Positions 7,032 to 54,117 of a stretch of DNA of 64,000 nucleotides are shown one piece after another. Source of the stretch: Methylomonas sp. LL1 (GTDB taxonomy: Bacteria > Pseudomonadota > Gammaproteobacteria > Methylococcales > Methylomonadaceae); the NCBI RefSeq assembly GCF_015711015.1, contig NZ_CP064653.1, forward strand, positions 1,240,001-1,304,000, read 5' to 3'. The translations under genes and the position numbers were made by a program. The notes under the pieces were generated by a model, which saw nothing but the letters and a program-made list of their open reading frames with translations, searched no databases and was not told the DNA's origin. Within the stretch, counting starts at the first letter, position 1; each line of letters starts with the position of its first letter.

Positions 7032-8156
7032 TTAAAAGTGATAATGCGCCCCCAAGCCGACATATTCCACTTTGTCTTTATAAAACTGGCCGCTGGGGGT
7101 GTAACCGTTGAAATATTCGACCATGACCTGCAGTTTGCGGCCCATGACTTGTAAATTATCGAATTCGACCCCGGCCCTGGCCGAGACATCGGTACTCCAA
7201 TCGTTTTCCTCGTAATTCTTGATGTCGGCGGCAATGATGGGCCGCATGTTGGCAAATTCAAAGCGCCATGGGCTCCTAAACTCGATACCGTATTGGGCCG
7301 ACCATTTTTTCAGCTCGGTGGGTTCTCTATGAAACAAGCCGCCGCCGCCGCCATAGACTCGCACGCCATAGGGAAGCTCATAGGACAGTTTCAGGTCCAC
7401 GCCTTCGTAACTGAGGTTCACCCGCTCGAATTTGGTGTTGACCTTGCGCAGTAAAAATTCGTCGCCCAGATGCGAACTCTGGTGGAACAGTCGGCCGAAG
7501 GCGGAAAATTGACCGGCCCGCACGCTGGAATAGAGGGATGCGATGAAATCGGTATTGACCAGATCGGACGATGAGGCACCCAGATTGAAATCGCTAAACA
7601 CGCCGGCCTGAATCCCGGTTTCCCATTGCGCCGAGGAATGGCCGAAGTTGGCGCGGTAAAACGGTATGGTTTCGCCGAAACTGACCGAGGCAATATCGCG
7701 GCCATCGAAGTTGTCGCTCTGGTAATTGCGGTAGGCCGCCGAAAAATGCGCCCAACGCGGATCGGCCAACAGCGGTTTGAACAAATGGCCCGACGGCAGC
7801 AGCCCGGTCGGCAATATCAATGTATCCGCGGTCGTGACCGCCTCGGTACCGGCAATGGCGGCGGCTTCGGCCGCCTGTTGGCTGGTGGTTTCGGCGACTT
7901 TGACGGCGGTAACGCCGGGGATGGCCGACAACACCCTGACGGCTTCGGCGCGTTCCGCGCTGGCCAAGCCAGCCACCGGCAAGGTAATCACACCGTCTTT
8001 TACCGCCAATGCCGGCATATCGAGCTTTAAATCATGCTTTAGCGCGGCGGCGGCATAACCGGCAATGTAAGCGTCGTTAGCAACCGTGGCCCGAGCCAAT
8101 GACACGGGAACCAGCAAAGCGGCGGCAAACGCCATCCAGCGGCGATAAGTCATCAT
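7032..8156 (-). CDS. DUF1207-family outer-membrane beta-barrel with N-terminal BON-like segment
   Basis: 374 residues with a signal peptide (about 1-24). A region of about 90 residues (GVITLPVAGLASAERAEAV to TAVKVAE) reads like a BON domain. A C-terminal barrel of about 250 residues, of DUF1207 type, ends in YVGLGAHYHF with the terminal Phe expected of outer-membrane barrels. Alternating strands such as RVNLSYEGVDLKLSYELPYG are evident. The start codon overlaps the stop of the BON lipoprotein gene by 4 nt (ATGA), so the two are translated from one mRNA and probably work together in the envelope. The function is unknown. The BON call for the N-terminal part is tentative. Confidence 0.82.
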   Translation of the reverse strand: MMTYRRWMAFAAALLVPVSLARATVANDAYIAGYAAAALKHDLKLDMPALAVKDGVITLPVAGLASAERAEAVRVLSAIPGVTAVKVAETTSQQAAEAAAIAGTEAVTTADTLILPTGLLPSGHLFKPLLADPRWAHFSAAYRNYQSDNFDGRDIASVSFGETIPFYRANFGHSSAQWETGIQAGVFSDFNLGASSSDLVNTDFIASLYSSVRAGQFSAFGRLFHQSSHLGDEFLLRKVNTKFERVNLSYEGVDLKLSYELPYGVRVYGGGGGLFHREPTELKKWSAQYGIEFRSPWRFEFANMRPIIAADIKNYEENDWSTDVSARAGVEFDNLQVMGRKLQVMVEYFNGYTPSGQFYKDKVEYVGLGAHYHF

Positions 8157-8936: not shown

Positions 8937-11159
8937 CTAAACTTTAATCTGAGTTGCTATAAAAAATTTTTCGAACTCCTGTGCCGGCACCGGTTTCGAG
9001 AACAGAAAACCTTGCCCATAATCGCAGCCGGCTTTCAACAATAAGTCGCGCTGCTCCGCCGACTCGATACCTTCGGCAATCACCTTCATGCCCAGGATAT
9101 GCGCCATCAAAATAATGGCTTCGCACAGGGCCATATCGGTGGAATCGGCGACCAGGTTGGAGACAAAGCCCTGGTCTATCTTCAAAAAATCGATGCGGTA
9201 TTTTTTAAGTTGCGATAACGACGAATAACCGGTGCCGAAATCGTCGAGAGAAGTCTGTATCCCCGCGCGCCTAAAGGCCAACAGTTTATCGGCCACGATG
9301 GCCGACGCATCCAGTAATAAGCCTTCGGTGATTTCCACCGCAATGCAACCACCGGGCAAACCCAGGCGGCGCAAATGCTCGAACCAGTCAGCCAGTTTTT
9401 CGCTGTTGTTATGAAACTGGGCGGGAGATTTATTGATACTGATCTGGAATTGCGCGGAATACTTGTCGCGCCAGGCGGCTACCTGATCGGCCACTTGATG
9501 GAATACCCAGCCGCCCAACTCGGTAATCAGTCCGCTGTCTTCGGCAATGGGGATAAACTCCGCCGGGCTGATCAAGCCCTGAGTCGGATGTTGCCAGCGT
9601 ATCAAGGCCTCGGCTTTTTGAATATGGCCGCTTGCCAGTTCCACAATCGGTTGGTAGGCCACCCAGATTTGATTATCGGCCAGGGCGTGGCGGAGGTCGT
9701 TGGTCATTCGTAAACGGATTTCGGCGGCTTCCTGCATGGATGGTGTGAAGTAACAAAAACGGCTGCGGCCCTGTTTCTTGGCGGCATACATGGCCTGATC
9801 GGCCTTCTTCTGCAAATCCTCGGCATTGTCGGCGTCATCCGGATAGAGGGCAACGCCGATGCTGACCGAGACATAGCAGCGTTCGTCCTTCAACTGGAAC
9901 GGCGCGATCATGGTTTGCAAAATAGACTGGGCCACGCGGTCGATGCTGTTGATTTCATGCAGTTCGCCCATGATCAGGGTGAATTCGTCGCCGCCCGGCC
10001 GCGCCAGGGTATCGGTCTCGCGGATACAACCGATCAGGCGCTGGGTGGTTTCCTTCAACAAACGATCCCCCATGTCGTGGCCCAAGGTGTCGTTGATATC
10101 CTTGAAATGGTCCAGATCGAGGAACATCAACGCCAACTTTTGATGCCCACGGTGGGATTTATTGATGGCCCGCTGCAGCCGGTCCAAAAACATACGCCGG
10201 TTGGGCAAGCCGGTGAGTGGGTCGATGTTGGCCTGGTTATGAATGATTTCTTCCGCGCGTTTTTTTTCGGTAATATCCGAGGACATGCCGACTCTGCGAA
10301 TGACTTCGCCCTGGTCGCCGTAGACAGTGCTGATCGACAACCAGCTCAGATATTCCTCGCCATTTTTGCGCCGGTTCCATATCTCGCCCTGCCATTGGCC
10401 GAGGGTATTCAGTTGTTCCCACATCGCCTGGAAAAAAGCCGGATTGTGACGATCCGATTTAAGCAGCGAGGTCGGCTGGCCGATGGCTTGTTCGGCGCTG
10501 TAGCCGGTCAATTTGCTGAAGGCCGGATTGATCGCCACGATCCGGTTGTTGGCATCGGCCACGGTAATGGCCTCCTCCAACGCCAGATAAACGGTGGCCG
10601 CCAGTTGCAGTTCCCGCTCGTTCTGTTTGCGCTCGCTAATATCCAATACCGCCATCAGGCAGGTTTCCCGAGTCGTATCGGCCGTCGCCTCGATACTGAC
10701 CCAGAGCGGTTCCTCGCCGGCCAGCAGGGTAATCTCGCAACTGTGACTGCCGTAATTGGCAAACACATTTTCCAAAAAGCCGTTGAAAATCGGCCGGCAT
10801 CCGCCGGATACGCTATCAATAAAATGGCGCCCGGCTATCTTCACCCGCTCGTTGCCCAATAATTTTTCACCGCGAAAATTGGTCTGCAGAATCCTGCCAT
10901 CGAGCCCTAGGCTAAAATAGGCCAGCGGCGCATAATCGAACAGCTCGGCATAACGTTCCAAGGCTGTTTCAGCGCCAGTGCGCGCTTCCCGCAAGGCTTC
11001 GTTCTGCATCTCCAGCTCGAGCTGATGCACTTGCAATTCATGCACCAGCCGGTAATGTTGGTGGTCATTGGTTTTTTCCGGCGCGGTCTCGGCCAGTTGC
11101 CGTTCCGCGCGTTGCCGCAGTTCCCCGTTTTCTTGAGTATTGTCAGTCCGGTTGGTCAT
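8937..11159 (-). CDS. PAS-PAS-GGDEF-EAL c-di-GMP turnover protein
   Basis: 740 residues, with no membrane segment seen. An N-terminal coiled-coil stretch (QHYRLVHELQVHQLELEMQN, about 33-60) leads into two PAS domains (about 70-180 and 190-310). A GGDEF domain follows with an intact RPGGDEF (near 390), then an EAL domain with AEALIRWQHP (near 515) and DDFGTGYSS. Both active sites look intact, so it may make or degrade c-di-GMP, or use one domain to regulate the other. The start overlaps the upstream CheB-CheR fusion gene by 17 bp, indicating co-translation and a shared pathway. Confidence 0.93.
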   Translation of the reverse strand: MTNRTDNTQENGELRQRAERQLAETAPEKTNDHQHYRLVHELQVHQLELEMQNEALREARTGAETALERYAELFDYAPLAYFSLGLDGRILQTNFRGEKLLGNERVKIAGRHFIDSVSGGCRPIFNGFLENVFANYGSHSCEITLLAGEEPLWVSIEATADTTRETCLMAVLDISERKQNERELQLAATVYLALEEAITVADANNRIVAINPAFSKLTGYSAEQAIGQPTSLLKSDRHNPAFFQAMWEQLNTLGQWQGEIWNRRKNGEEYLSWLSISTVYGDQGEVIRRVGMSSDITEKKRAEEIIHNQANIDPLTGLPNRRMFLDRLQRAINKSHRGHQKLALMFLDLDHFKDINDTLGHDMGDRLLKETTQRLIGCIRETDTLARPGGDEFTLIMGELHEINSIDRVAQSILQTMIAPFQLKDERCYVSVSIGVALYPDDADNAEDLQKKADQAMYAAKKQGRSRFCYFTPSMQEAAEIRLRMTNDLRHALADNQIWVAYQPIVELASGHIQKAEALIRWQHPTQGLISPAEFIPIAEDSGLITELGGWVFHQVADQVAAWRDKYSAQFQISINKSPAQFHNNSEKLADWFEHLRRLGLPGGCIAVEITEGLLLDASAIVADKLLAFRRAGIQTSLDDFGTGYSSLSQLKKYRIDFLKIDQGFVSNLVADSTDMALCEAIILMAHILGMKVIAEGIESAEQRDLLLKAGCDYGQGFLFSKPVPAQEFEKFFIATQIKV

Positions 11160-13785
11160 GGCTGTTCCTTAATTTGGCTTCCAGCTTCTTGGTTTCGGAG
11201 ATGTCGATAAAGGTGATCACCACGCCGTCGATCAAGTTGTCGTGGGTACGGTATGGCATGATCCTGACCTTGAACCAACGCTCGTTGCGGGCCGTGACTT
11301 GTTTTTCGATAAAAACCAGGGTACGCAGCACGTCGCGCGCATCTTGTTGCAATTGCGGATACTCCAGATCGGTGACGATGTCCGACAACGGCCGGCCGAC
11401 ATCGGCCGCTATCAGCTTGAACAAGTGGCAAATGTGGCTGGTAAAGCGGCGGATGTTGAGGGCGTTGTCCAGAAATACCGTGGCGATTTCCATGCTGTTG
11501 AGTAGATTGTCCATGTCATTGCTGGCCCGCGACAAATCGTCGACCTTGGCCTGCAATTCGGCGTTCACGGTTTGCAGTTCCTCGTTTAGCGACTGCATCT
11601 CTTCCTTGGAGGTGGTTAATTCCTCGTTGGAGGACTGCAACTCTTCATTGGTCGATTGCAGCTCTTCGTTGGCCGATTTCAGCTCTTCCTGCGAAGTCTG
11701 CATTTCCTCGCGCAAGGTTTGCATTTCATCGCGGGCTTGTTGCAAATCATACTGGAGCGATTTCATCTCGGCGTTTGGAGACTTACGGGGTGTCTTCCCC
11801 GCCGGCGGTATTTCCACATCGGTAAATACCACGATCAGCAAGCCTTTTAAGGCTTCGGGTTTACTGATGGCCTGTACCATCAGGTTTACGGTTTGCTTGC
11901 CGCCATCGGTCGCTACCAACAGGCCGGCCATCCGCACCGCATCGTCTTGAGTTCGCGCTTTTTTGAGCGAGCTGAGGATTTCATGCCGCAGCCCTTCGCG
12001 AGCCATGGCATGGATATTCCAGTTGGCTTTCCCGGCCGCCGGCTCCAGATATTTGCCGGTGCGGCCGTTGATGTACAGAATGTCGCCATCGGCATTGACC
12101 AAGACCGCCGCCGGCGCATAGTGTTGCAACAATAGCTTCTCGGCCAAGGTTTGCAGATTGATAATAGAGCTTGGTTGGTCGGTTTCGCTCGGCATGGCTT
12201 TGGTTGTGAAATACTTGGTGGGGAAATCGACTTCGAGCGGAAACGGATTGCCAACACGTAGATAAAGCCTGGACTTGCTGTCGAGGACATTGAATAAATG
12301 GCTGAAATTGCTGATGGTTTCGGAGTTGCCGAGCAACAAAATGCCACGATTGAGCAGTGTATAGTGAAACAGCAGAATCAGTTTTTTCTGCAATTCGGTA
12401 CTCAGATAAATCAACAGATTCCGGCAGCTGAGTATATCCAGTTTGGTAAACGGCGGATCCATAATGACGTTATGCGGGGCGAAAATAACCATCTCGCGAA
12501 TCTCTTTATTGATTCGATAGCCATCGCCATCGACACTAAAGAAACGGCCAAGCCGTTCCTCGCTGACATCGCCGGCAATATTGGCCGGATACAAACCTTG
12601 GCGGGCCTTGTCGATGGCATCCTGATCCAGGTCGGTGGCGAAGATTTGCAGTTTAAACGGCTGCGGATATTGGCCTTGCGCCAGGACTTCCTTGAAGGTA
12701 ATGGCCAAGGAATAGGCTTCCTCGCCGGTCGAGCAAGCCGGCACCCAGGCTCTAAGTACCTTGCCGGCCGGATATTGGGCCAACAGCGTCGGAATGGCGT
12801 TATTCTTCAGCGCTTCCCATATCGCAGGATCGCGAAAAAAATTGGTGACGCCAATCAGCAATTCCTTGAACAGCAAATCCAGTTCCTGGGGATTTTCGCG
12901 CAGATAGCGCACATATTTGTGGACTGCGTCGATCTGATGCAGCCCCATGCGCCGTTCGATACGCCGATAGATGGTATTTTTTTTATACAGCGAGAAATCG
13001 TTGCCGGTGCGTTCGCGTAGCAGGATCACGATTTGTTCCAGCGCGCTTTGCGCTTTCAGTTCCAGGATGGCCTCCGGCGCGGCATTTAGACCACGCGGAC
13101 TATGCTTCAGATAAGCCAGTATCTTTGCCCACAACTCCTGAGCCGGCGCCACGATATCCGCCAAGCCGGCCTCGATCGCGCTACGCGGCATCGAATCGAA
13201 TTGGGCGGATTCCGGCGCTTGCACGACCGCCAGGCCGGCGTTTTCCTTGATGGCGCGCAGCCCCAAGGTGCCGTCGGAGCCCATGCCGGACAGAATCACG
13301 CCGATCGCCCGCTCATGCTGATCGTCGGCCAGCGCCCGAAAAAATGCATCGATAGGCAAACGTAAACCGCGTGGCGCGACCGGGTCCAGCAGGTGCAGCT
13401 TGCCATGCAGGATAGACAAATCCTTATTGGGCGGAATCACATAGACCCAATCCGGTTTGACCTTGATCCGGTCGCCGGCCTGAACCACTGTCAACGGCAT
13501 GACCCGTTGCAACAATTCCGGCAACATGCCTTGATAATTGGGATCCAGGTGTTGAATCACCACGAATGCCACGCCGCAGTCTGCCGGTACCTGGGAAAAA
13601 AACTGTTCCAAGGCCTCCAATCCGCCGGCCGAGGTTCCAACGCCAACAATGGGCGGCGCGATTTCGACATCGAGGTTCGGTTTGGCCGCCCCCAAGGGTT
13701 TGGCCACTTTTAAGGTAGGATCGGCAAGTTTTAAGGTATCGGAGCCTAATTTGGCCGTGCGGGATTTGTCCATTTTTGAGCTCAC
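11143..13785 (-). CDS. CheB-CheR-PAS fusion protein (methylesterase/methyltransferase)
   Basis: 880 residues. The CheB-type domain (about 43-230) has the triad Ser52 (GTSAGG), His79 (IQHLDPN) and Asp171 (GMGSDGT), but no receiver domain precedes it. A CheR methyltransferase domain follows (about 245-510, with WVPACSTGEEAYSLAI and LLSCRNLLIYL-type motifs). Then come a PAS-like region, a long coiled coil of heptads (SANEELQSTNEELQ and similar, about 680-760), and a terminal PAS domain ending in FIDISETKKLEAKLR. Such fusions are known but of uncertain substrate. No chemoreceptor is adjacent. It is the first gene of a two-gene unit with the PAS-GGDEF-EAL protein. Confidence 0.93.
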   Translation of the reverse strand: MSSKMDKSRTAKLGSDTLKLADPTLKVAKPLGAAKPNLDVEIAPPIVGVGTSAGGLEALEQFFSQVPADCGVAFVVIQHLDPNYQGMLPELLQRVMPLTVVQAGDRIKVKPDWVYVIPPNKDLSILHGKLHLLDPVAPRGLRLPIDAFFRALADDQHERAIGVILSGMGSDGTLGLRAIKENAGLAVVQAPESAQFDSMPRSAIEAGLADIVAPAQELWAKILAYLKHSPRGLNAAPEAILELKAQSALEQIVILLRERTGNDFSLYKKNTIYRRIERRMGLHQIDAVHKYVRYLRENPQELDLLFKELLIGVTNFFRDPAIWEALKNNAIPTLLAQYPAGKVLRAWVPACSTGEEAYSLAITFKEVLAQGQYPQPFKLQIFATDLDQDAIDKARQGLYPANIAGDVSEERLGRFFSVDGDGYRINKEIREMVIFAPHNVIMDPPFTKLDILSCRNLLIYLSTELQKKLILLFHYTLLNRGILLLGNSETISNFSHLFNVLDSKSRLYLRVGNPFPLEVDFPTKYFTTKAMPSETDQPSSIINLQTLAEKLLLQHYAPAAVLVNADGDILYINGRTGKYLEPAAGKANWNIHAMAREGLRHEILSSLKKARTQDDAVRMAGLLVATDGGKQTVNLMVQAISKPEALKGLLIVVFTDVEIPPAGKTPRKSPNAEMKSLQYDLQQARDEMQTLREEMQTSQEELKSANEELQSTNEELQSSNEELTTSKEEMQSLNEELQTVNAELQAKVDDLSRASNDMDNLLNSMEIATVFLDNALNIRRFTSHICHLFKLIAADVGRPLSDIVTDLEYPQLQQDARDVLRTLVFIEKQVTARNERWFKVRIMPYRTHDNLIDGVVITFIDISETKKLEAKLRNSHDQPD

Positions 13786-14466: not shown

Positions 14467-14745
14467 TCAGTTGCCTTCCTTAATATCCTGCTTGAGATCG
14501 CCATAGCCCTTTTGGGCCTTACCGAGATTCTTTTGGACATTGCCTTCCACTTCCATGCCCTTGTCGTCCAGTATCTTGCCGGTGACTTCCTTGACTTTGC
14601 CCTTGGTTTCTTCAACCCGGCCTTCTACTTGATCATCGTTCATCGGCGCTTCGATTTTGCTGTTTTCGGCATAAGCGTTTAACCCGCAAAATGACAAGAT
14701 GAAGCCGGCCATTAACAGGGTGGATTTGTTTTGGGTGAATTTCAT
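14467..14745 (-). CDS. CsbD-like protein with signal peptide
   Basis: About 92 residues from the ATG at MKFTQNK. A TTG six codons earlier is possible but less likely. An N-terminal signal peptide (TLLMAGFILSFCGLNAYA) precedes the CsbD-type domain DDQVEGRVEETKGKVKEVTG and EVEGNVQKNLGKAQKGYGDL. Most CsbD proteins are cytoplasmic, so an exported version is notable. It is 72 nt downstream of a second, leaderless CsbD gene, with which it may be co-transcribed. CsbD proteins accumulate under general stress and have no known biochemical role. Confidence 0.88.
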   Translation of the reverse strand: MKFTQNKSTLLMAGFILSFCGLNAYAENSKIEAPMNDDQVEGRVEETKGKVKEVTGKILDDKGMEVEGNVQKNLGKAQKGYGDLKQDIKEGN

Positions 14746-14817
14746 GATGAGTTTCCGTGACAATAGTGGGAGGAATTAACGCCGGCAGCCCCGGCTTTGC
14801 AGGGCAATCCAGCCGGT

Positions 14818-15000
14818 TTAGTCTTCAGTCGACTTCTTGATGTCTTCCTTAAGGTCACCAAAGCCCGATCGAACCTTACCGGCATTTTTTTGAACATTGC
14901 CTTCTAGTTCCATCGCTTCGTCCTCGCTGGCCTTGCCGGCGATTTCCTTCACTTTGCCTTTGAGCACTTCGACTCGGCCTTTTATTTGATCTCTGTTCAT
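14818..15000 (-). CDS. CsbD-family stress protein (cytoplasmic)
   Basis: 60 residues, the usual CsbD length, with no signal peptide. It opens NRDQIKGRVEVLKGKVKEIAG and continues LEGNVQKNAGKVRSGFGDLKEDI. It is closely related to the exported copy just downstream, suggesting a local duplication in which one copy acquired or lost a signal peptide. A CRP-like dyad lies 96 bp upstream of the ATG. GGGAACC precedes the start. Confidence 0.9.
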   Translation of the reverse strand: MNRDQIKGRVEVLKGKVKEIAGKASEDEAMELEGNVQKNAGKVRSGFGDLKEDIKKSTED

Positions 15001-15308: not shown

Positions 15309-17756
15309 TCAAGGCGATAGTTTGGTTTGCAAGACTTGTAGAATCTTGTCGTACTCAAGATTGTCGGCATAATGTTTTAGTCTGCCGCCAAGCTCGGCAT
15401 TCCACTCGCTAATTCGGGCGACGGCCTCGGCTATCGGTTCTTCGTATAAGGAAATGGCCGCTTCGTAAAGCTGTTCGCGCAAGGCCGCCGGCATACCTTC
15501 CAAATCCTGGGGCGTCAATTCGGCAAAGGTTTTATCGGCCGGCGCTGATGCGTCCCGATAAATGAAGCGCACGCCCAGGTGTTTGCTCAAACAGGCAAAG
15601 ATTTCGTCGGGACGATACGGCTTGTGCAGTAGATCGTCCATACCCGAATCGCGCATTTCCTGCTGTTGCTCCTTAAATGCCGAAGCGGTCAATGCGACGA
15701 TCTTGACCGATTGGCCGCCAGGCAAGGCCCGAATGCGGCGGCTGGCTTCCATGCCGTCCATCACCGGCATGCGTCTATCCATCCAGACAAAATGCGGCGC
15801 CCAGCTTTGGAATAAAGTGACTGCTTCCAGCCCATTTTCGGCGGTTTGAATCTGGAAGCCGACCTGTTGCAACAGTTTTTTCAATAACAAGGTGTTTTCC
15901 AACTGATCCTCGACGATCAAAATCCGGTAGTCGGGCTGGCCTGGTTCCAATCCGATCACGCTGCCAGGTTGCGGTTCGGCGCTGGCGAGCTCGGTTTCAC
16001 TGGCCAATTGGACCGGAAATTCGGTTCGAAACACCGATCCCTTACCCAGGGTACTGTTCAGTGTCAGGCTACCCCCCAGCAATTGCACGAACTGATGGGA
16101 AATCGCCAAGCCCAAGCCGGTACCCTTATGGTTGCCGGTCTTGCCGGCCTGGACAAAGGCATCGAAGATCAGCGGCTGATCTTCGGCGGCGATGCCGATA
16201 CCGGTATCTTGCACTTCGATAATCAACCAGGGTGTCTGTCCTTGGGTTTTGACATCCAGCCGCAGGGTCACGCTACCCTGCTCGGTAAATTTGATCGCAT
16301 TGCCGATTAAATTGGTGATGATTTGCCGTAGTTTTGCTTCGTCGCCACGGATCAGGCGCGGAAAACACGAGGATTGATCCAACAGGAGTTTTATGCCTTT
16401 TTCATCGGCCCGTTGACGCATCAGGTCGTGGATGTCGCGCACCAACGCGCCCAAATCGAACGGAGCGATTTCGAGTTCAACCCTCCCCGCCTCGATCTTG
16501 GCCATGTCCAGCACATCATTGATCAGATGCAACAAATGATCGCCGCTACGGTTGATGATCTCGAGATTTTCGCGCTGGCCGTCGGAAATGCTCGGATCAC
16601 GCTGCATCAAGCCGGAGAATCCGAGAATCGCGTTCAGCGGGGTCCGCAGTTCGTGGCTCATATTGGCCAGAAACAGGCTTTTGGCGCGGTTGGCGGCTTC
16701 GGCCCGTTCCTTGGCCCCTTCCAGCTCGCGGGTACGCGACTTTACTTTGTCTTCCAAGTCGGCCTGGATACTGCGCAAGGCTTCGGTGCGCTGGTCAAAA
16801 ATCACCGCCAGTTCGTCGAGTTCATCGCCGGTACCTAGCGGCGAGCAACGCCGTTCGGAACTGCCGTCGGCCAATGCCGCGCGTTGGCGCAAGATCAGGA
16901 TGGGGCGGGCCAGGCGATAGCCGAACCAGGATGCCAACCCGATGCCGATCACGGTCAACAATAGACCGAACAAGGCCACATCACGAATGGCGGTCTTGAC
17001 CGGCGCCAGAATTTTTTCCCGCGACATGGCCAGTTCCAGTTCCAGGTTTAATCCGCCCAGATTGGTCGCCGCCGGACTTTCGGCTAGGCGCCGGCGTTTA
17101 ACCATCACGTTGCCCCCAACCTCTTCGCCGCGCAAGTAAAGCCTATTCTGGCCGTCGAAAAGGCTGTGGCGTAAATCGGGATCGGCCGGCAATACGCGTT
17201 GAGCTATCGCGGGCAAGTCGAAATTCACCAGCAGCGCCGCCTGAGTGGTGCCGTAATAAACCACCGGAACGAATACTTGCCAAAGCCGGCGTTCGGCATC
17301 GACCGATTGGCCGACCACGCCATAGTTCAGTGCGGTGCGCAGTTCATGCGAATCTTGATAGGTTGGCAGGTTGGGCTGGCTGGCATAGATAGGCCGGCCA
17401 TCGAAATCCAACAACGCCACCGCGCGAACATCGCGCCCTTGCTCGAAATTGGCCACCAACTTGGGTAGGTAAGTCTTGCGTCCCTGGCTATCGATGATGC
17501 CGTTGATCAACAACGGATTCTTGGCCAATACCTGAGCGCTTTCCAATAAATAGTCGAAGCGTTGGGCAAGTTGGCCGGCATTGACTTCGTAGCGCTTGTC
17601 GAGATCGGTTTCCAACGCCTCGGTCAGGATCCCGATCAGGCGATAAGCCACCACCGATGCCACGCTCAGCATGGCGATGACGACGAAGCTGCCGAATAAC
17701 CAAGTGATGCGCCGGCGTAAACCGTGGCCACCCGTGAAAAAGGCCAAGGATTTCAT
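15309..17756 (-). CDS. Hybrid sensor histidine kinase/response regulator
   Basis: 815 residues in the inner membrane. TM1 is at about 14-38, followed by a periplasmic sensor region of about 210 residues and TM2 at about 256-278. HAMP and a coiled coil ([20 protein letters not shown]) follow. HisKA has [11 protein letters not shown] (His368). An HATPase has [16 protein letters not shown] and [10 protein letters not shown] receiver domain has the phosphoacceptor Asp660 in [13 protein letters not shown]-terminal helical tail of about 100 residues lacks an obvious Hpt histidine. No separate output regulator is nearby. The start codon overlaps the stop of the dual solute-binding gene (TGATG), so the two are coupled. 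The kinase probably reads that protein. Confidence 0.93.
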
Positions 17757-19948
17757 CAGCGTGCTCCGACAATACGGCCACGCTCGTCGTATTTGGCCAA
17801 ATGCAATATGTCCGGCCCTAACGCATCATGCCGTTCGGCCGTAAACGGCGGAACATAGTCGCGAACGATGCCGGGATAGGATTTCAACTTTTCCATCGCC
17901 GCGCGGATGGCCTGGGTATCCGAAGTACCGGCTTGGCGGACGGCACTCGCCAACAGATGCACCAGATCATAAGCATGCGCGGTACCGGCGGGCGCCGGGA
18001 TAGGATCGATGGCTGTTAACCGGTAACGGGCACGATAGCGTTCGGTGAAAGCCGTCAGGCGGGGGTTGGCTGTGCCGTTGTCCATCAGGATGGACTGGAC
18101 AAAACGCAGTTCCACCTTACTCAGCGCATGTTGGCTTTGACGCCAAAAATCGCCGCCGGTGAATCCCCAGTGCGCGTAGATCGGTAGGGGATTGTCCATC
18201 CGCGCCATGTCTTCAACCAGTTCCCTACTTTCCGCCGCATTGGCCACCAGGATAATCACATCGGTGCCGCGGTCACGCAGTTCTGACAGCCTGGCCGCGA
18301 AATCGGTTTCACCCCGATTCAACCATTCCAGGGTCACCGTGCCGGGCGGCAGCTTGGCAATCAAGGGGTTCAGCGCTTCTTCGTTACTACGCCCCCAGGC
18401 GGACTGTTCCAGCAAGGCGGTGATATGCCGGCCGCGATGCAAGGCATGTTCGAGTAAAAAGGGCGCGACCCAGGTATCGTCGATGGAAACGCGAAAGGTA
18501 TAACTGGGTTGGTAATCATGGTGGATGACTCCGGTACCGGCCGACCAGGCCATCAAAAACGGCAGTTGCAGACGGTGGATCGTTTCCAGTTCGTCCTGTA
18601 TCACGCTAGTGTGCATGCCTGCCATCGTTGCCAACATGCCGGGCAGGCGGGCGAAGGTTTCGATATTTTCCAGACCCCGGAACGGATTTTGCCGGTGGTC
18701 GCGGGCCACGATGCGCAGCGGTCGTCCCAAAATGCCGCCCTTGCCATTGATCTCGTCCACCGCCATTTCCATGCCGCGTAAAATTGCGCCACCGGCCATT
18801 GCACCGCTGCCGGACAAGTCGGCGTCGAGTCCGAGCAACAGCGGCATGGTTGAAGCCGGTTGGCCTGCCCGGTTGGCCTGGTCCAGTAATGCCATGATCC
18901 GCAATTCGTCGGTCTTGGCCAACAAGTCGTAGCCGACTTCGAAACCGTAGCCGCGTACCAGGGGAGCCAGCGCTTCGGCAAAACGTTGGCGCTGGTCGCC
19001 GCCGAGAGTATGCACTTGCACGCCGGCGGCGCGGATTGTCTCCAGAAACTGGGCTTCGCGCCGGGCCGTTTCTTCCCGTTCCCACGGTGCCAGTTCGCGG
19101 GCGGTGTCCAGAATCAGGTCGCGTATATCCTGCGGCAAGCCCTCGAATGCCTTACGGCTGGCCGAAAACACATAGCCTAGCCAGGCATGATTGCTGAGGG
19201 TCAAGTGGCTTTGCACCTCGTATAGGCGTTTGCCGGCGATGGCGACCAGCGGATTCTCCTGGCCATCGACCGCTCCGTCGGTCAGTGCTTGATGAAGGGT
19301 CGCGAAATCGATAACGACCGGCTCGGCGCCCATTGCGCTGAATTGATCCATCAGCAACCGGCTCTTCATGGTCCGTATGCGCAGACCGGCAAAATCCTCG
19401 GGACGCAACAGAGGACGATTGGCGGTGAATTGTTTGAAGCCGTTTTCCCAGAAAGCGATGCCGACCAGACCGATGTCGTTGAGCTTGGCCAGTAACAGAT
19501 TGCCCGGTTCACCGTCCAGCATGCTGTAAAGCTCGGCACGGTCGGCGAAGTAGAAAGGCAGATCGGCATATTGCATGGCCGGCACATCGACGCTGAGTTT
19601 GGCGGTGGGCGTCAACAACAGATCGAGTTTACCTTCCCGCGCCATTTCGACCATCTGTTCGTCGGTGCCGAGTTGTTGGTCGGGATAGACTTTTACCTCC
19701 ACCCTGCCCTGGCTGCGTTCGGCTATCCGTTCGGCGAAACGCTGCGAAGCGGCATGCAAGGCACTGTCGGCACTGAGGTTGAGGCCTAAGCGTAAACTGT
19801 AGCGCGCCACGGCGACCGGTGGCGGGGCATTGGATCGAAGCGGGCCGGCGCCGGAATAATACAAATAGCACCCAACCACAGCCAGCACGATGCTCAAGGT
19901 CAGCAAGGTCACGATCAGGTAATGTATCGGTTTCCGTTTCGTTGCCAT
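17756..19948 (-). CDS. Membrane-anchored fusion of TRAP-type and ABC-type solute-binding domains
   Basis: About 730 residues from the ATG at MATKRKP (AGGA 3-4 nt upstream). A longer frame reaches 20008. A single N-terminal hydrophobic segment ([18 protein letters not shown], with a Cys that could form a weak lipobox) anchors it outside the membrane. Residues about 48-340 are a DctP/TRAP solute-binding domain ([40 protein letters not shown]). Residues about 365-720 are a LivJ/LivK-like periplasmic-binding domain ([26 protein letters not shown]). No transport subunit of either class is adjacent. Overlap with the hybrid kinase points to a sensory rather than transport role. The ligands are unknown. 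Confidence 0.9.
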
Positions 19949-20014
19949 GGTTCCTACTTTTAAATGCAGATATATGCCGTCGATTTTTACAGTGTACCCC
20001 GGTCGCATTAAACG

Positions 20015-38428: not shown

Positions 38429-40183
38429 ATGTTGATGATGAACTGGCATTCTGTGGGTGTGAAAGTAGTCGCGATTACCATGGCAGTGCTGACTGTTGTA
38501 GGGATTGGGGTTTTGGTTATTTTTTCGAATGTCCAAAAACAAAACCTTATCGATCGCAAAATCGAGACCTCTCGACAACTACTTTTGGTATCGGAATCCA
38601 TCCGCGATAACGTCGTCAAAAAATGGGAGAGCGGCATCTACTCTCCCGAACAACTGATGCAGTTGACCCAGAATCAAGACAGGGCCAAGAGCAGGGAACT
38701 GATTATTGCCACGGTTCCAACCGCCAATGCCTGGGACGTGATCGAGGCCAAGGCCAAGGAAGGCGGTTTCCGCTTTAAGGCCCCCGCCCTCAATCCGCGC
38801 AACCCTCCACGCAATAATCCCGATGAAATAGAACGTCAGGTTTTGGATAAATTCCAGAGCGATCCATCTTTGAAAGAATATAGCGTCGTAGACGACGAGA
38901 AACAGGAAATTCGCTATTTCAGACCGGTAAAAATGGTCAAACAATGCGAACTCTGCCATGGCGACCCAAGCACTTCACAAGCATTGTGGAATAACGACAA
39001 GGGCCAAGATTTGCTGGGTTATCCGATGGAAAACCGCCGCGCCGGCGACCTGCACGGGGCTTTCGAAATCATTACGCCGTTTGACGTGGCCTTTGCCAAC
39101 TTTAAAACCGAAATGTATTACGCCATCGGCTTTCTGGTGCTGGGCCTGTTTTTGATTGGCAGCACCGGCTATTTTGTAATGAACAATATTATTATCAGCC
39201 CCTTGACCGATCTAGCGTTGAGCTTGCAACAAATCTGCAGCGGCGAAGGTGATTTGCGCGCACGATTGAATGCTTCCGGGAAGTCAGAGTTCGCCTGGGT
39301 TGCCTCCAGCTTTAACTCCTTCGTCAAAAAGATCGCCAAAACAGTCGATGAAATCAGCGTTACCAGTGAAAAGCTGGCCAGCGCCTCGCATAAATTGGCT
39401 ACGATCACCCAAACCACCCAAAAAGGTGTCGAAAGACAGCTGCAGGAAACCACCTTAGTGGCGAATGCCATGAAACAAATGACCGCCACCGTACAAGAAG
39501 TTGCCAGAAATGCCGTCAGAGCTTCGGAAGCCGCCGAAACCGCCGACAGAGAGGCTACCAGCGGCAAGAACATCGTCAATGACGCGGTCAACGGTATTAA
39601 CAGCCTGGCCACCGAAGTCGAAAACGCCGCCAATGTGATCCATGAATTGGAAAACGACAGCAACAGTATCGGCGAGGTGCTGGGCGTGATTCAAGGCATC
39701 GCCGAACAAACCAACCTACTGGCGCTCAATGCAGCCATCGAAGCGGCAAGAGCGGGCGAACAAGGCCGGGGTTTCGCGGTGGTGGCCGATGAAGTCAGAA
39801 CGCTGGCCAGCCGGACTCAGAACTCAACGCTGGAAATCCAAAAAACCATAGAACGCTTGCAAGACCGTGCCAAACAAGCCGTTTCGGTGATGGACAACGG
39901 CCGAAAACGGGCGGCATCCAGCGTCGATCAGGCCGCCTCCGCGGGTGGTTCCATCACGTCCATCAGTGAAAGAATAGACACCATCAACGACATGAACAAT
40001 CAAATTGCCAGCGCGGCGGAAGAGCAAACCGCCGTGGCCGAGGAAATTAACCGCAACATCAGCAACATCAGCCATGTCTCGGAGGAAACCTCATTGGGCG
40101 CCAAAAACACCGCCGACGCCTGTCATGAGCTGCTGGAGCTGGCCAATCAATTGCGTTCCACTGTGGGCAATTTCAGAACCTAG
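38429..40183 (+). CDS. Methyl-accepting chemotaxis protein with c-type heme sensor domain
   Basis: 584 residues. TM1 is at about 12-32. A periplasmic Tll0287-like/DUF3365 domain contains a CxxCH heme motif, QCELCHGDP (Cys173, Cys176, His177). TM2 is at about 229-251, then HAMP ([20 protein letters not shown]). A signalling domain has the conserved hairpin tip [20 protein letters not shown] followed by [15 protein letters not shown]. The heme suggests redox or gas sensing. The ATG has AGGAG 7 nt upstream. It is monocistronic, with a terminator at 40196. No che genes are adjacent. Confidence 0.92.
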
Positions 40184-49941: not shown

Positions 49942-52900
49942 ATGGGTAACATGAATTCGATTGATATTTTCCCCTGGAATGAAAATTTCAATACAGGCGT
50001 ACCCAAAATTGATCAACAGCATCGAAAATTAGTGCAATTGCTGAATGTGCTGGCCAGCCATATCGCATTTGAATCCGACCTTCCGGCTTTGAATATCATT
50101 TTCGATGAACTTGCCGACTATGCCCTTCATCACTTCCAAACGGAAGCCACCATTTGGCATCGGTATTTAGCGGACGATGAACTGGAAACACGGCACAAAG
50201 CGACGCATGACAGCTTTATAGACACAGTCTTAAAAATTAAAGCCAAGCAGAGTAGCCAACCGGCCAATGCGGTACTTGAACAGGTGCTGGCATTCCTGAC
50301 GCGCTGGTTGGCGGCTCATATCCTGGAAAGCGACCGGCATATGGCCATGATAGTGCTAGGCATGCAATCGGGCATGACCTTGGAGTCGGCCAAAAAACTC
50401 GCGGCCGAGAAAATGAGCGGGACTACGCCAGTATTGATCGACCTGATTCTGTCCATTTACGAAAACCTGTCCAGCAATGCCTTGCAACTGATGCGCGAAC
50501 TGTCCCAGCGCAAACGCGATGAAGAATCCTTGTTAAAACTATCCCTGGCGGTGGAACAGAGTCCCAGCTCGATAGTGATTACCAACCGGGATGCCACCAT
50601 CGAGTTTGTCAACGAGGCATTCTTAAACGCAACCGGCTATGATCGCGGCGAAGCCATCGGACAAAACCCACGGCTCTTGCAATCCGGTAAAACGCCCCAG
50701 GAAACCTTCGAACGGATGTGGGCTGCCTTGACTCAAGGCAGGGTATGGGAAGGCGAATTCATCAACAGGCGCAAGGATGGCAGTGAATATGTCGAACTCG
50801 CTCAAATTTCGCCCATACACCAGGCCGACGGTAGCGTCAGCCATTATCTGGCTATCAAGGAAGATATCACCGAACGCAAGCGACTCGAGCGCGATCTGGT
50901 CGATCAATTGGCATTCACCCAAGCCGTAATCAATGCCGAAGTCAATGGTATTGCGGTATTCCATCAGATAGACGAAGAACCCCATGTCCGCTTCACGGTC
51001 TGGAACCCCAGCATGCGGGCAATTACCGGCTTTAGCCTGGAAGAGATGAATCGGCTGGGCTGGTACCGGACGATCTATACCGATCCCGCCATTCAACAGC
51101 AAGCCAGACTGTGTATGCGGCGCTTGCAACAAGGCGATCCTATTCAGGATCAGGAATGGGCCATCACCCGGAAACATGGGGAACGGCGTATCGTCCAAAT
51201 CCACGCAACCGGCTGCGCCGATGATGCCCAAGGCGCGCATATACTGGTAGTCATGCATGACATCACGCAGCGTAAGCAGGCCGAGAAGGCGCTGCTAGAG
51301 TCTCATCAACAAATGGATTCCTTGTTGAACTCCATGGCCGAAGGCGTATATGGGGTCGATACCGAAGGTGTCTGCGGCTTTGTAAACCGTTCATTCCTGC
51401 AAATATTGGGCTACGAAAACACCGAGCAGATCATCGGCAAACCGATCCATGACCTGATTCATCATTCTCACCCGGACGGCAGCCATTTTCCCGCCGAGCA
51501 ATGCAAGATACATGACACCTGTCTTCACCATCAAGAAATTCACTTAACGGACGAGGTTTTTTGGCGTTCGGATGGCGTGGGAATACCGGTCGAATACCGG
51601 GCACAGCCTATTGTTACCAACGGTGTGATGACCGGTGCAATCGCCACTTTTGTCGATATCAGCGATCGAAAAAAGGCCGAGGAGGCCGCTCAATCAGCCG
51701 CGCAATACGCCCGAAGCTTAATCGAAGCCAGTTTGGATCCCTTGGTAACGATTAGCGCGGCGGGCAAGATTACCGACGTCAATACCGCTACCGAGTGGGT
51801 AACCGGCGTGGGCCGAGAAAAACTGATCGGCAGCGACTTTGCCGATTATTTCACCGATCCCGCCGATGCACGCGCCGGTTATCAGCTGGTATTCTCGCAA
51901 GGTTTCGTGACCGATTTTCCGCTCACCATTCGCCATGCCTCGGGCAAGATCACCGAGGTACTCTATAACGCCTCGGTTTATCGGGATGGCAATGGTACGG
52001 TGTTGGGGGTGCTCGCCACCGCCCGCAATATAACCGAGCGTAAGCGGATTGAAGCCAGGCTTAGCGATAGCGAATCCCACCTACGCACCATCATCGAGAA
52101 CGAACCGGAATGTATCAAGATCGTTGATGCCCAGGGCCGACTGGTGCAAATGAATCCCGCCGGATTGGCAATGATAGAGGCGGACGGATTGGAACAGGTT
52201 CTCGCGCAACCGGTGCTGAATGTCATCGCGCCCGAATACCGCAAGGCTTTCGCCGACATGCATGCCAGAGTCATTGCCGGCCAATCCGCGCAATTGGAAT
52301 ATGAAGTGATAGGCTTAAAAGGCGGCCGTCGCTGGCTGGAAACCCACGCCGTACCGATGAAGGAAGCCGATGGCACGGTAGTGCATCTGGCCGTCACCCG
52401 CGACATCAGCGAACGAAAACGGGCCGAAGATCAACTGCGTATTGCCGCAACGGTTTTTGAATCGCAAGAAGGCATGATGGTGACGGATGCCAATAACGTC
52501 ATCCTACGGGTCAATCAAGCCTTTACCGAAATTACCGGCTACCCCGCGGCGGAAGTGGTAGGCAAAAACCCGCATATCCTCCAGTCCGGTCGGCAAGATA
52601 AAAGCTTTTATGCCGCCATGTGGGAAAGTATCGCCACTAGCGGCACTTGGGAAGGTGAAATCTGGAACCGCCGCAAAAACGGCGAAGTCTATCCGGAATA
52701 CCTGACGATCAAGGCGGTAACGGATCAATGCCGGCGCGTCACCCATTATGTCGGCACCTTATCGGACATTAGCCTCAGAAAATCGGCGGCCGAGGAAATT
52801 GAACGCTTGGCTTTTTACGATCCGCTCACCGGCCTGCCTAATCGGCGCCTGCTGCAGAATCGCTTGAAACCGGCGCTTGCCAACAGCCATCACACCGGAC

Positions 52901-54117
52901 GTAACGGTGCCCTACTGTTCATCGATCTGGACAACTTTAAATCGCTGAACGACACGCTTGGGCATGATATGGGTGACCTGCTGCTGCAACAGGTTTCCGA
53001 CCGCTTGAACACCTGCGTCAGGGAGAGCGACACCGTTGCCCGGCTGGGCGGCGACGAATTCGTGGTGATGCTGGAAAATTTGAGCGAGGATTTATTGACC
53101 GCCGCGCAACAAACCGAAGCCATTGGTGAAAAAATTATTGCCGCCATCAACCGGCCTTTCTCGCTGGCCACGCACGATTACATCAGTACACCCAGCATAG
53201 GCGCGACCCTGTTTAAAGGCCAACAAAGATCGGCCGACGATCTATTGAAACATGCCGATATTGCGATGTATCAAGCCAAAATTTCAGGCCGTAATGCCTT
53301 GCGTTTTTTCGACCCGAAGATGCAAGAGGCGGTAATTGCCAGAGTCTCCCTGGAAAATGAATTACGCAAGGCGCTCGATAATCGGCAATTTCAACTGTTT
53401 TATCAAATCCAAGTGGAAAACTCGGATCGGGTATTTGGCGCGGAGGCTTTGATTCGTTGGCTACATCCCGAACGAGGCTTGGTGTCTCCCGCCGACTTCA
53501 TCCCGCTGGCGGAGGAAAACGGCATGATCCTTGGCATAGGCCTATGGCTGCTGGAAACAGCCTGCGCACGGCTCAAGGCCTGGCGGCAAGAGCCGGCTAC
53601 CCGGGAACTGGTGCTATCGATAAACATCAGCCCCAAGCAATTTTTTCAGATCGATTTCGTCAACCAAGTACAAACAGCGCTTCAAAAGCACGCGGTCGAT
53701 CCAAGCCGGCTCAAGCTGGAACTGACCGAAAATATTTTGATTGAAAATATCGATGAAACCATAGAAACCATGAATGCGTTGGGCGCCATCGGCGTGCAGT
53801 TTTCCTTGGACGACTTCGGAACCGGATATTCTTCCCTGCAATACCTGAAAAAATTACCGTTGAATCAACTGAAAATCGATCAATCATTCATCCGCGATAT
53901 TGTCGAAGATAGCGGCGATCAAGCCATAGTCCGCACCATCATCGCCATGGCCGCCAGCCTCAACCTCGGCGTTATTGCCGAAGGGGTGGAAACGGAACAG
54001 CAGCGGCGGTTTCTATTCGACAATAACTGCAAACACTACCAAGGTTATCTATTCAGCAAGCCGCTACCGCTGGAGCAATTCGAGCAGTTGTTGACTCTTA
54101 CCAAACCTCGAAATTAG
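49942..54117 (+). CDS. Bacteriohemerythrin-multi-PAS-GGDEF-EAL protein
   Basis: 1391 residues without membrane segments. The N-terminal hemerythrin domain (about 5-135) keeps all seven di-iron ligands with canonical spacing: His27, His64, Glu68, His85, His89, His126 and Asp131. It therefore should bind O2. About six PAS/PAC units follow (about 195-945), several ending in DITERKR-type boundaries. The GGDEF domain has RLGGDEFVVML (near 1037), and the EAL domain has GAEALIRWLHP and DDFGTGYSS. Both catalytic sites look intact. It probably couples oxygen to c-di-GMP. It ends 3 bp from the stop of the convergent CNNM gene. Confidence 0.95.
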   Translation: MGNMNSIDIFPWNENFNTGVPKIDQQHRKLVQLLNVLASHIAFESDLPALNIIFDELADYALHHFQTEATIWHRYLADDELETRHKATHDSFIDTVLKIKAKQSSQPANAVLEQVLAFLTRWLAAHILESDRHMAMIVLGMQSGMTLESAKKLAAEKMSGTTPVLIDLILSIYENLSSNALQLMRELSQRKRDEESLLKLSLAVEQSPSSIVITNRDATIEFVNEAFLNATGYDRGEAIGQNPRLLQSGKTPQETFERMWAALTQGRVWEGEFINRRKDGSEYVELAQISPIHQADGSVSHYLAIKEDITERKRLERDLVDQLAFTQAVINAEVNGIAVFHQIDEEPHVRFTVWNPSMRAITGFSLEEMNRLGWYRTIYTDPAIQQQARLCMRRLQQGDPIQDQEWAITRKHGERRIVQIHATGCADDAQGAHILVVMHDITQRKQAEKALLESHQQMDSLLNSMAEGVYGVDTEGVCGFVNRSFLQILGYENTEQIIGKPIHDLIHHSHPDGSHFPAEQCKIHDTCLHHQEIHLTDEVFWRSDGVGIPVEYRAQPIVTNGVMTGAIATFVDISDRKKAEEAAQSAAQYARSLIEASLDPLVTISAAGKITDVNTATEWVTGVGREKLIGSDFADYFTDPADARAGYQLVFSQGFVTDFPLTIRHASGKITEVLYNASVYRDGNGTVLGVLATARNITERKRIEARLSDSESHLRTIIENEPECIKIVDAQGRLVQMNPAGLAMIEADGLEQVLAQPVLNVIAPEYRKAFADMHARVIAGQSAQLEYEVIGLKGGRRWLETHAVPMKEADGTVVHLAVTRDISERKRAEDQLRIAATVFESQEGMMVTDANNVILRVNQAFTEITGYPAAEVVGKNPHILQSGRQDKSFYAAMWESIATSGTWEGEIWNRRKNGEVYPEYLTIKAVTDQCRRVTHYVGTLSDISLRKSAAEEIERLAFYDPLTGLPNRRLLQNRLKPALANSHHTGRNGALLFIDLDNFKSLNDTLGHDMGDLLLQQVSDRLNTCVRESDTVARLGGDEFVVMLENLSEDLLTAAQQTEAIGEKIIAAINRPFSLATHDYISTPSIGATLFKGQQRSADDLLKHADIAMYQAKISGRNALRFFDPKMQEAVIARVSLENELRKALDNRQFQLFYQIQVENSDRVFGAEALIRWLHPERGLVSPADFIPLAEENGMILGIGLWLLETACARLKAWRQEPATRELVLSINISPKQFFQIDFVNQVQTALQKHAVDPSRLKLELTENILIENIDETIETMNALGAIGVQFSLDDFGTGYSSLQYLKKLPLNQLKIDQSFIRDIVEDSGDQAIVRTIIAMAASLNLGVIAEGVETEQQRRFLFDNNCKHYQGYLFSKPLPLEQFEQLLTLTKPRN

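Follow-up and report, generated by a model that had tools for sequence, protein, structure and literature searches.

Several bacterial sensory systems work through a periplasmic solute-binding protein (SBP). LuxP, a single soluble domain of an SBP family other than those treated here, serves with LuxQ as the autoinducer-2 (AI-2) sensor of Vibrio, TorT is a single SBP whose partner TorS has a sensor region of a different type, and EvgS, BvgS and CdgH carry tandem SBP domains within the receptor itself. Here we consider a pair of overlapping genes in a stretch of 64,000 nucleotides of the methane oxidizer Methylomonas sp. LL1 (contig NZ_CP064653.1, positions 1,240,001 to 1,304,000, hereafter referred to as the window), which encode a fusion of two SBP domains of different transport classes, DctP of the tripartite ATP-independent periplasmic (TRAP) type and LivK of the ATP-binding cassette (ABC) type, and a hybrid histidine kinase. 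Stimulation of receptors by SBPs is regarded as widespread, and SBP-activated sensor kinases are established with only about ten characterized, BctC/BctE among them (PMC9602780, PMC5812351).

The sensory pairing of the fusion with its receptor is strongly supported by the comparisons below, and the fusion itself is real and uncommon. We consider it probable that fusion and kinase form a dedicated sensory unit in which the fusion is a periplasmic ligand-binding co-receptor, in the manner of LuxP/LuxQ or BctC/BctE. The features of the pair are as follows, with residue numbers of the fusion domains counted from the start at 20008 of a longer, 750-residue open reading frame (ORF):

17756..19948, minus strand: fusion gene, 730 residues (anchor helix, DctP, LivK/Peripla_BP_6), with the start set by comparison with homologues and by an AGGA-type ribosome site
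19856..19924, minus strand: predicted anchor helix, residues 29-51 of the 750-residue ORF, with a lipobox-like VVGC at the helix end that is absent as a conserved feature in homologues
18953..19780, minus strand: DctP (TRAP-type) solute-binding domain, residues 77-352, with K192 and R212 invariant (27/27)
17864..18832, minus strand: LivK-like (Peripla_BP_6) solute-binding domain, residues 393-715, with a fold match that spans 387-750
15309..17756, minus strand: hybrid histidine kinase, 815 residues, whose start overlaps the fusion stop
16737..17756, minus strand: receptor region, kinase residues 1-340 (membrane helix, dCache-like periplasmic domain, second membrane helix, HAMP-like linker)
16485..16685, minus strand: HisKA, kinase residues 358-424, with H368 within SHELRTP
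16008..16346, minus strand: HATPase_c, kinase residues 471-583
15594..15923, minus strand: receiver, kinase residues 612-721, with D660

A contig scan with the fusion as query gave 42 loci, 31 of the fusion type (L003-L033, some of them truncated at a contig end or interrupted by a frame break, with L032 showing the DctP half only before its contig ends) and 11 with single SBPs. The carriers include Methylomonas, Methylobacter, Zoogloea, Dechloromonas, Rhodoferax, Magnetococcales, SAR324, Desulfobulbaceae, Sulfuricurvum and others, those outside Pseudomonadota being metagenome-assembled genomes. Wherever enough downstream DNA was present (28/28 loci), the next gene downstream of the fusion matches approximately residues 10-350 of the window kinase. 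From these loci we use three alignments, namely A1 (27 fusions), A2 (28 receptors) and A3 (a receptor-region model from fusion-adjacent receptors only).

The same association is found from the receptor side. Searching 398 genomes of the phylum with A3, at most five candidates being scored per genome and further places therefore being possible, returned 55 matches, of which 37 places in 29 genomes have E < 1e-20. Directly upstream of these strongest matches, on the same strand, lies a fusion in 33 of the 37 (the fusion of L104 being gapped in the LivK half and that of L112 cut at the contig start), which is the genetic SBP-kinase linkage of LuxPQ- and BctCE-type systems. The remaining four comprise one with a single LivK (L083), two with no SBP gene (L107, L110) and one at a contig edge (L091). 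Among the 18 weaker matches, five span the N-terminal part, all with a single LivK (L085-L089), and 13 cover the juxtamembrane part only. A second sample comprised 369 genomes of the class; matches at E 1e-12 came from 16 of them, and 13 of these matches span the N-terminal receptor part, eight with a fusion and five with a single LivK protein. Among 198 genomes of the phylum of G571, the genome of L028, only G571 itself passed this threshold.

Taken together there are 84 distinct receptors (81 plus three from single-LivK pairs added later), of which 65 have a fusion, 15 a single LivK (L083, L085-L089, L145-L147, L176, L178, L179, L210-L212), two no upstream SBP gene, one a contig edge and one an unclear partner; a DctP protein alone was the partner in none of the 84. 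The 81 were first labeled automatically (61 fusion, 17 LivK, 3 none) and then relabeled by reading. Rereading the 17 LivK labels gave 12 true single LivK genes, four missed fusions (L019 and L122/L149, taken to be interrupted by a frame break; L123/L150, of which L150 is intact; and L157/L173, where a second LivK fragment separates an intact fusion from the receptor) and one left open, L121/L148, which consists of fragments only. The three labeled none are L107 and L110, with no SBP gene upstream, and L071/L091, which starts at a contig edge in a genome that carries a fusion on another short contig (L229). In L104 (2324-4012, plus strand) the fusion is without approximately 150 positions in the middle of the LivK half, and the adjoining receptor is intact. 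The reading made from the window's sequence alone (the sequence-only reading) had proposed a search for this linkage across genomes, which the 65 distinct fusion-receptor pairs now supply. It had also named two findings that would speak against it, an artificial join of two genes and homologues seated beside TRAP or ABC permeases. A chance or assembly join is rejected, as intact fusions that agree in domain order and approximate length are found in dozens of genomes, and the homologues adjoin receptors and not permeases.

What lies behind the receptor region is less constant. Among the 28 receptors of A2, HisKA and HATPase_c are present in 27, a receiver in 25, Hpt in 18 and GGDEF-EAL in one (L033, Sulfuricurvum); GGDEF-EAL outputs also occur in L174, a fusion pair from a genome of the window's class, and in L176, a single-LivK pair, and the receptor of L175 is a plain kinase. 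Since the output varies between hybrid kinase, plain kinase and GGDEF-EAL, the constant partner of the fusion is the dCache-like receptor region. That part of the sequence-only reading which makes the fusion a sensor is well supported; at two of the fusion loci, L033 and L174, GGDEF-EAL stands in the place of a kinase. Receiver-HD_5 genes, of a cyclic di-GMP (c-di-GMP) phosphodiesterase type, lie close to the pair in each of the four loci scanned (L006, L024, L025 and L026) out of eight that show a cluster of this kind, and together with the GGDEF-EAL outputs they make c-di-GMP a recurrent, not a universal, output. By 2022, work on c-di-GMP networks had covered only a single domain family from the periplasmic-binding-protein clan, according to one report (PMC8846402).

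Both halves of the fusion fit their families by sequence and by fold. The DctP match to PF03480 has an E value of 4.8e-81 and 272.7 bits against a curated cut-off of 23.4, covering profile positions 4-280 of 286, and the Peripla_BP_6 match (E 1e-30) is near full-length and above its curated cut-off, so that the two domains are complete and stand in the order first proposed, DctP-like and then LivJ/LivK-like. A structure model, one of the checks suggested at the outset, has a predicted local distance difference test value (pLDDT) of 90.2 and a predicted template modeling score (pTM) of 0.86, the latter suggesting that the two halves may hold a fixed mutual placement; a search of a viral structure library gave general SBP-like folds. 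We take R212 of the DctP half to correspond to R147 of SiaP. Alignment to 4ovs places R and K at the positions matching R212 and K192, and the solved structures nearest to this half include the sugar-acid binder 7bbr. Dicarboxylates are the predicted ligands of DctP proteins in one report (PMC9602780). The DctP half would bind a carboxylate, with a small dicarboxylate or a sugar-acid-like compound as the likeliest candidates.

The receptor-region model, which fits the layout expected of dCache (a long helix ahead of two PAS-like subdomains, with a membrane helix on either side), resembles the periplasmic domains of KinD, DctB, CqsR and LuxQ, with PctA also matched, and dCache_1 is matched at E 0.001 in 13/28 related receptors. 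The window kinase is of a short hybrid type, as in Methylobacter and Methylomonas methanica (807 and 809 residues), and its best NCBIfam match is TorS, over the catalytic part and below the cut-off. For the window copy the description as a kinase with its own receiver was right (HisKA, HATPase_c and one receiver, with the phospho-acceptor residues H368 and D660 in place), and a Pfam scan gave no match to an Hpt domain.

The start of the fusion gene deserves some comment. The longer ORF (17756-20008, minus strand, 750 residues) holds an internal ATG at 19948 behind AGTAGGAACC, and many homologous ORFs start near the equivalent position (these being mechanical starts), which is why we adopt the 730-residue length that the sequence-only reading had given. 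One membrane helix, residues 29-51, is predicted ahead of both domains, again as that reading had it. Lipoprotein anchoring, which the lipobox-like VVGC might have indicated, was rejected because the cysteine is not kept across the 27 fusions of A1. Judged by eye, the fusions retain a hydrophobic N-terminal helix without an AxA-type site, and the single LivK partners have N-termini like cleaved signal peptides and no anchor. The overlap of the fusion stop with the kinase start (TGATG), reported at the outset, is confirmed by the sequence (...GCTGATGAAA); it is one base in the window and often four bases among the loci.

The history of the LivK half separates these proteins from transport. In a careful tree of 94 LivK domains (four short LivK rows having been dropped from the LivK trees and three far outgroup rows left out of this one), 78 sensor-type domains, 63 from fusions and 15 single, split from 16 receptor-less relatives with support of 100/99, and all 78 stand beside a receptor except that of L229, where the contig ends. 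LivH/LivM-type genes are adjacent to 15/16 of the receptor-less relatives vs. 0/15 of the single-LivK receptor loci; at fusion loci they were found in 1/100 (duplicates included, flanks of 1.5 to 8 kb), as a fragment 7.6 kb away. Permease linkage thus lies almost wholly outside the sensor clade, which sets the sensor-type LivK branch apart from transport. Similarly, no DctM or DctQ match was found in any fusion locus examined, so the DctP part of the fusion is a domain only and not a linked TRAP transporter subunit.

How often the fusion arose is a different matter. Fusions require two label changes on the careful LivK tree, yet a single fusion clade is not rejected (approximately unbiased (AU) test, p 0.189), and we therefore claim neither one nor several origins. 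As the base of the sensor-type LivK group does not resolve, a LivK sensor may have acquired DctP or a fusion may have lost it; acquisition would, we think, be the simpler course. L149 and L150, from Methylomonadaceae of genus code g233, begin with a DctP-like domain that has diverged very far (E 3e-11 and 1e-14) and is followed by the LivK sensor domain, which reflects either a separate fusion event or fast divergence. As for the window genome, a strong receptor match is present in 2/151 sampled genomes of its family, its nearest group on the LivK trees is mostly betaproteobacterial, and the fusion gene has a G+C content of 59.2% vs. 52.8% for the window, which together suggest horizontal arrival.

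In the mechanism that we favor, an uncleaved N-terminal helix would hold the fusion in the periplasm, where it would act as a co-receptor on the dCache-like domain of the adjoining kinase, the LivK half perhaps being the part that docks on the receptor and the DctP half an added carboxylate-binding part. Closure of the binding domain or domains would move the membrane helices of the receptor and change the autokinase state, and the signal would pass to the kinase's own receiver; since the window kinase shows no Hpt domain, a separate Hpt protein or another regulator would be needed to carry it onward. That 15 related receptors have only a single LivK suggests that LivK alone can be the receptor partner, and the joint recurrence of fusion and receptor in distant bacteria means that the fusion probably reports on outside chemicals and does not import them.

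Several observations weigh against this account. The dCache_1 score of the window receptor, 18.9 bits, is below the cut-off of 45, dCache domains can bind ligands directly, and the A3 searches favor fusion-linked receptors because A3 was built only from receptors beside fusions. Mirror-tree comparison with the receptor (48 of 61 pairs) does not single out the LivK half as the docking part, the Pearson coefficient favoring LivK (0.865 vs. 0.739 for DctP) and the Spearman coefficient DctP (0.724 vs. 0.551 for LivK). The receptors of L107 and L110 have no adjacent SBP gene, and are possible direct-binding or distant-partner forms. Adjacency of SBP and kinase genes also need not mean a link in function: in P. 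aeruginosa, the AgtS and AruS cases showed no binding or interaction, according to one report (PMC11113362). These last two cases are also what speaks for a lack of any shared function, in which the dCache-like domain would have a ligand of its own and the fusion another task; such mere adjacency seems improbable for a pairing that is kept across distant bacteria, through changes of output, and in both fusion and single-LivK forms. We give still less credence to the idea that the fusion is a transport protein feeding a TRAP or ABC permease encoded elsewhere. Both domains do come from transport families, the sole other DctP gene of the window genome stands with DctQ- and DctM-like genes, and a DctM gene is present in 22/27 searched fusion genomes. 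However, DctM is absent from the other 5/27 (genome completeness not being given), fusion loci lack DctM and DctQ as described above and keep a steady link to the receptor, and the window genome, rated 100% complete, gave no BPD_transp_2 (LivHM-type) permease in a search that was positive in 12/14 control genomes.

Within the co-receptor account, it is also necessary to consider what each half does. It may be that sensing is left to the DctP half and that the LivK half serves only for docking, with its pocket lost or unused, a reading that we regard as a real, if tentative, candidate. It agrees with the all-pairs identity among the 27 fusions of A1 (0.66 for the DctP half vs. 0.45 for the LivK half), with the share of invariant positions (73/284 vs. 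24/361), and with the invariance of the WENGFKQ motif, R212, K192 and ENPL of the DctP half in 27/27. It sits less easily with W488, F505, R506 and W538 of the LivK half, likewise 27/27, and with the 15 LivK-only systems, where LivK must do the sensing if the SBP senses at all. Alternatively, as in the two-ligand sensor of the sequence-only reading, both halves may bind ligands and the receptor may read the combination, as the completeness of both folds and the mutual placement suggested by the pTM value would allow; the greater variability of the LivK half and the lack of a known ligand for either half leave this somewhat doubtful. The fullest form of the idea, a coincidence detector of fixed arrangement made from two unrelated transport systems, whose one dCache-like receptor would pass the combined input to the output domain it happens to carry, be it for a phosphorelay or for c-di-GMP, we think rather unlikely.

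The surroundings of the pair were also surveyed. Its large-ORF neighbors are RND pump genes upstream and CheB-CheR-PAS and PAS-GGDEF-EAL genes downstream, and they include neither a TRAP or Liv permease nor a DNA-binding regulator, in keeping with the sequence-only reading. The two downstream genes lie in that order at 8937-13785 (minus strand), separated by approximately 1.5 kb from the kinase, which is encoded on the same strand. The small ORFs of this 1.5-kb gap were listed outside the neighbor domain scan; two of them (14467-15000, minus strand), one with a signal-peptide-like start, we take to resemble CsbD-type stress proteins. Elsewhere the window encodes a Hemerythrin-PAS-GGDEF-EAL protein of 1391 residues with six PAS_9 stretches (49942-54117, plus strand), a chemoreceptor with a Tll0287-like sensor domain (38429-40183, plus strand) and a DUF1207 protein (7032-8156, minus strand, E 2.2e-166). 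Rfam and tRNA scans of the window gave no matches.

A search of the open-access literature, mostly of titles and abstract openings and with subscription literature largely outside its scope, found no description of a DctP-LivK fusion or of an anchored two-class SBP protein dedicated to a receptor. The family offers a natural series that runs from ABC-linked LivK through receptor-paired LivK and receptor-paired DctP-LivK to a different output behind the same receptor region. With it one could ask where the docking surface lies, whether a second binding domain brings in a second signal, and by what route a protein of transport comes to serve sensing alone.

Like LuxP/LuxQ, the window pair joins a periplasmic binding protein to a hybrid kinase with a Cache-like domain, and LuxQ structures match the receptor model, but in place of LuxP it has two fused and anchored SBP domains of different transport classes. 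The TorT/TorS system is alike in combining an SBP with a hybrid kinase and unlike in its single SBP and its other type of sensor region. In BctC/BctE, the citrate-sensing system of Bordetella, a carboxylate-binding SBP likewise stimulates a sensor kinase, whereas BctC is a TctC-family protein that works for a transporter as well (PMC9602780, PMC5812351), and the window fusion has no linked transporter. EvgS, BvgS and CdgH also set two SBP-type domains upstream of a signaling output, although the two SBP families of the window form a separate protein. The single-LivK receptor pairs share the LivK group, a related receptor region and adjacent genes with the window pair, and differ in having no DctP domain and in carrying signal-peptide-like N-termini where the fusion has an anchor.

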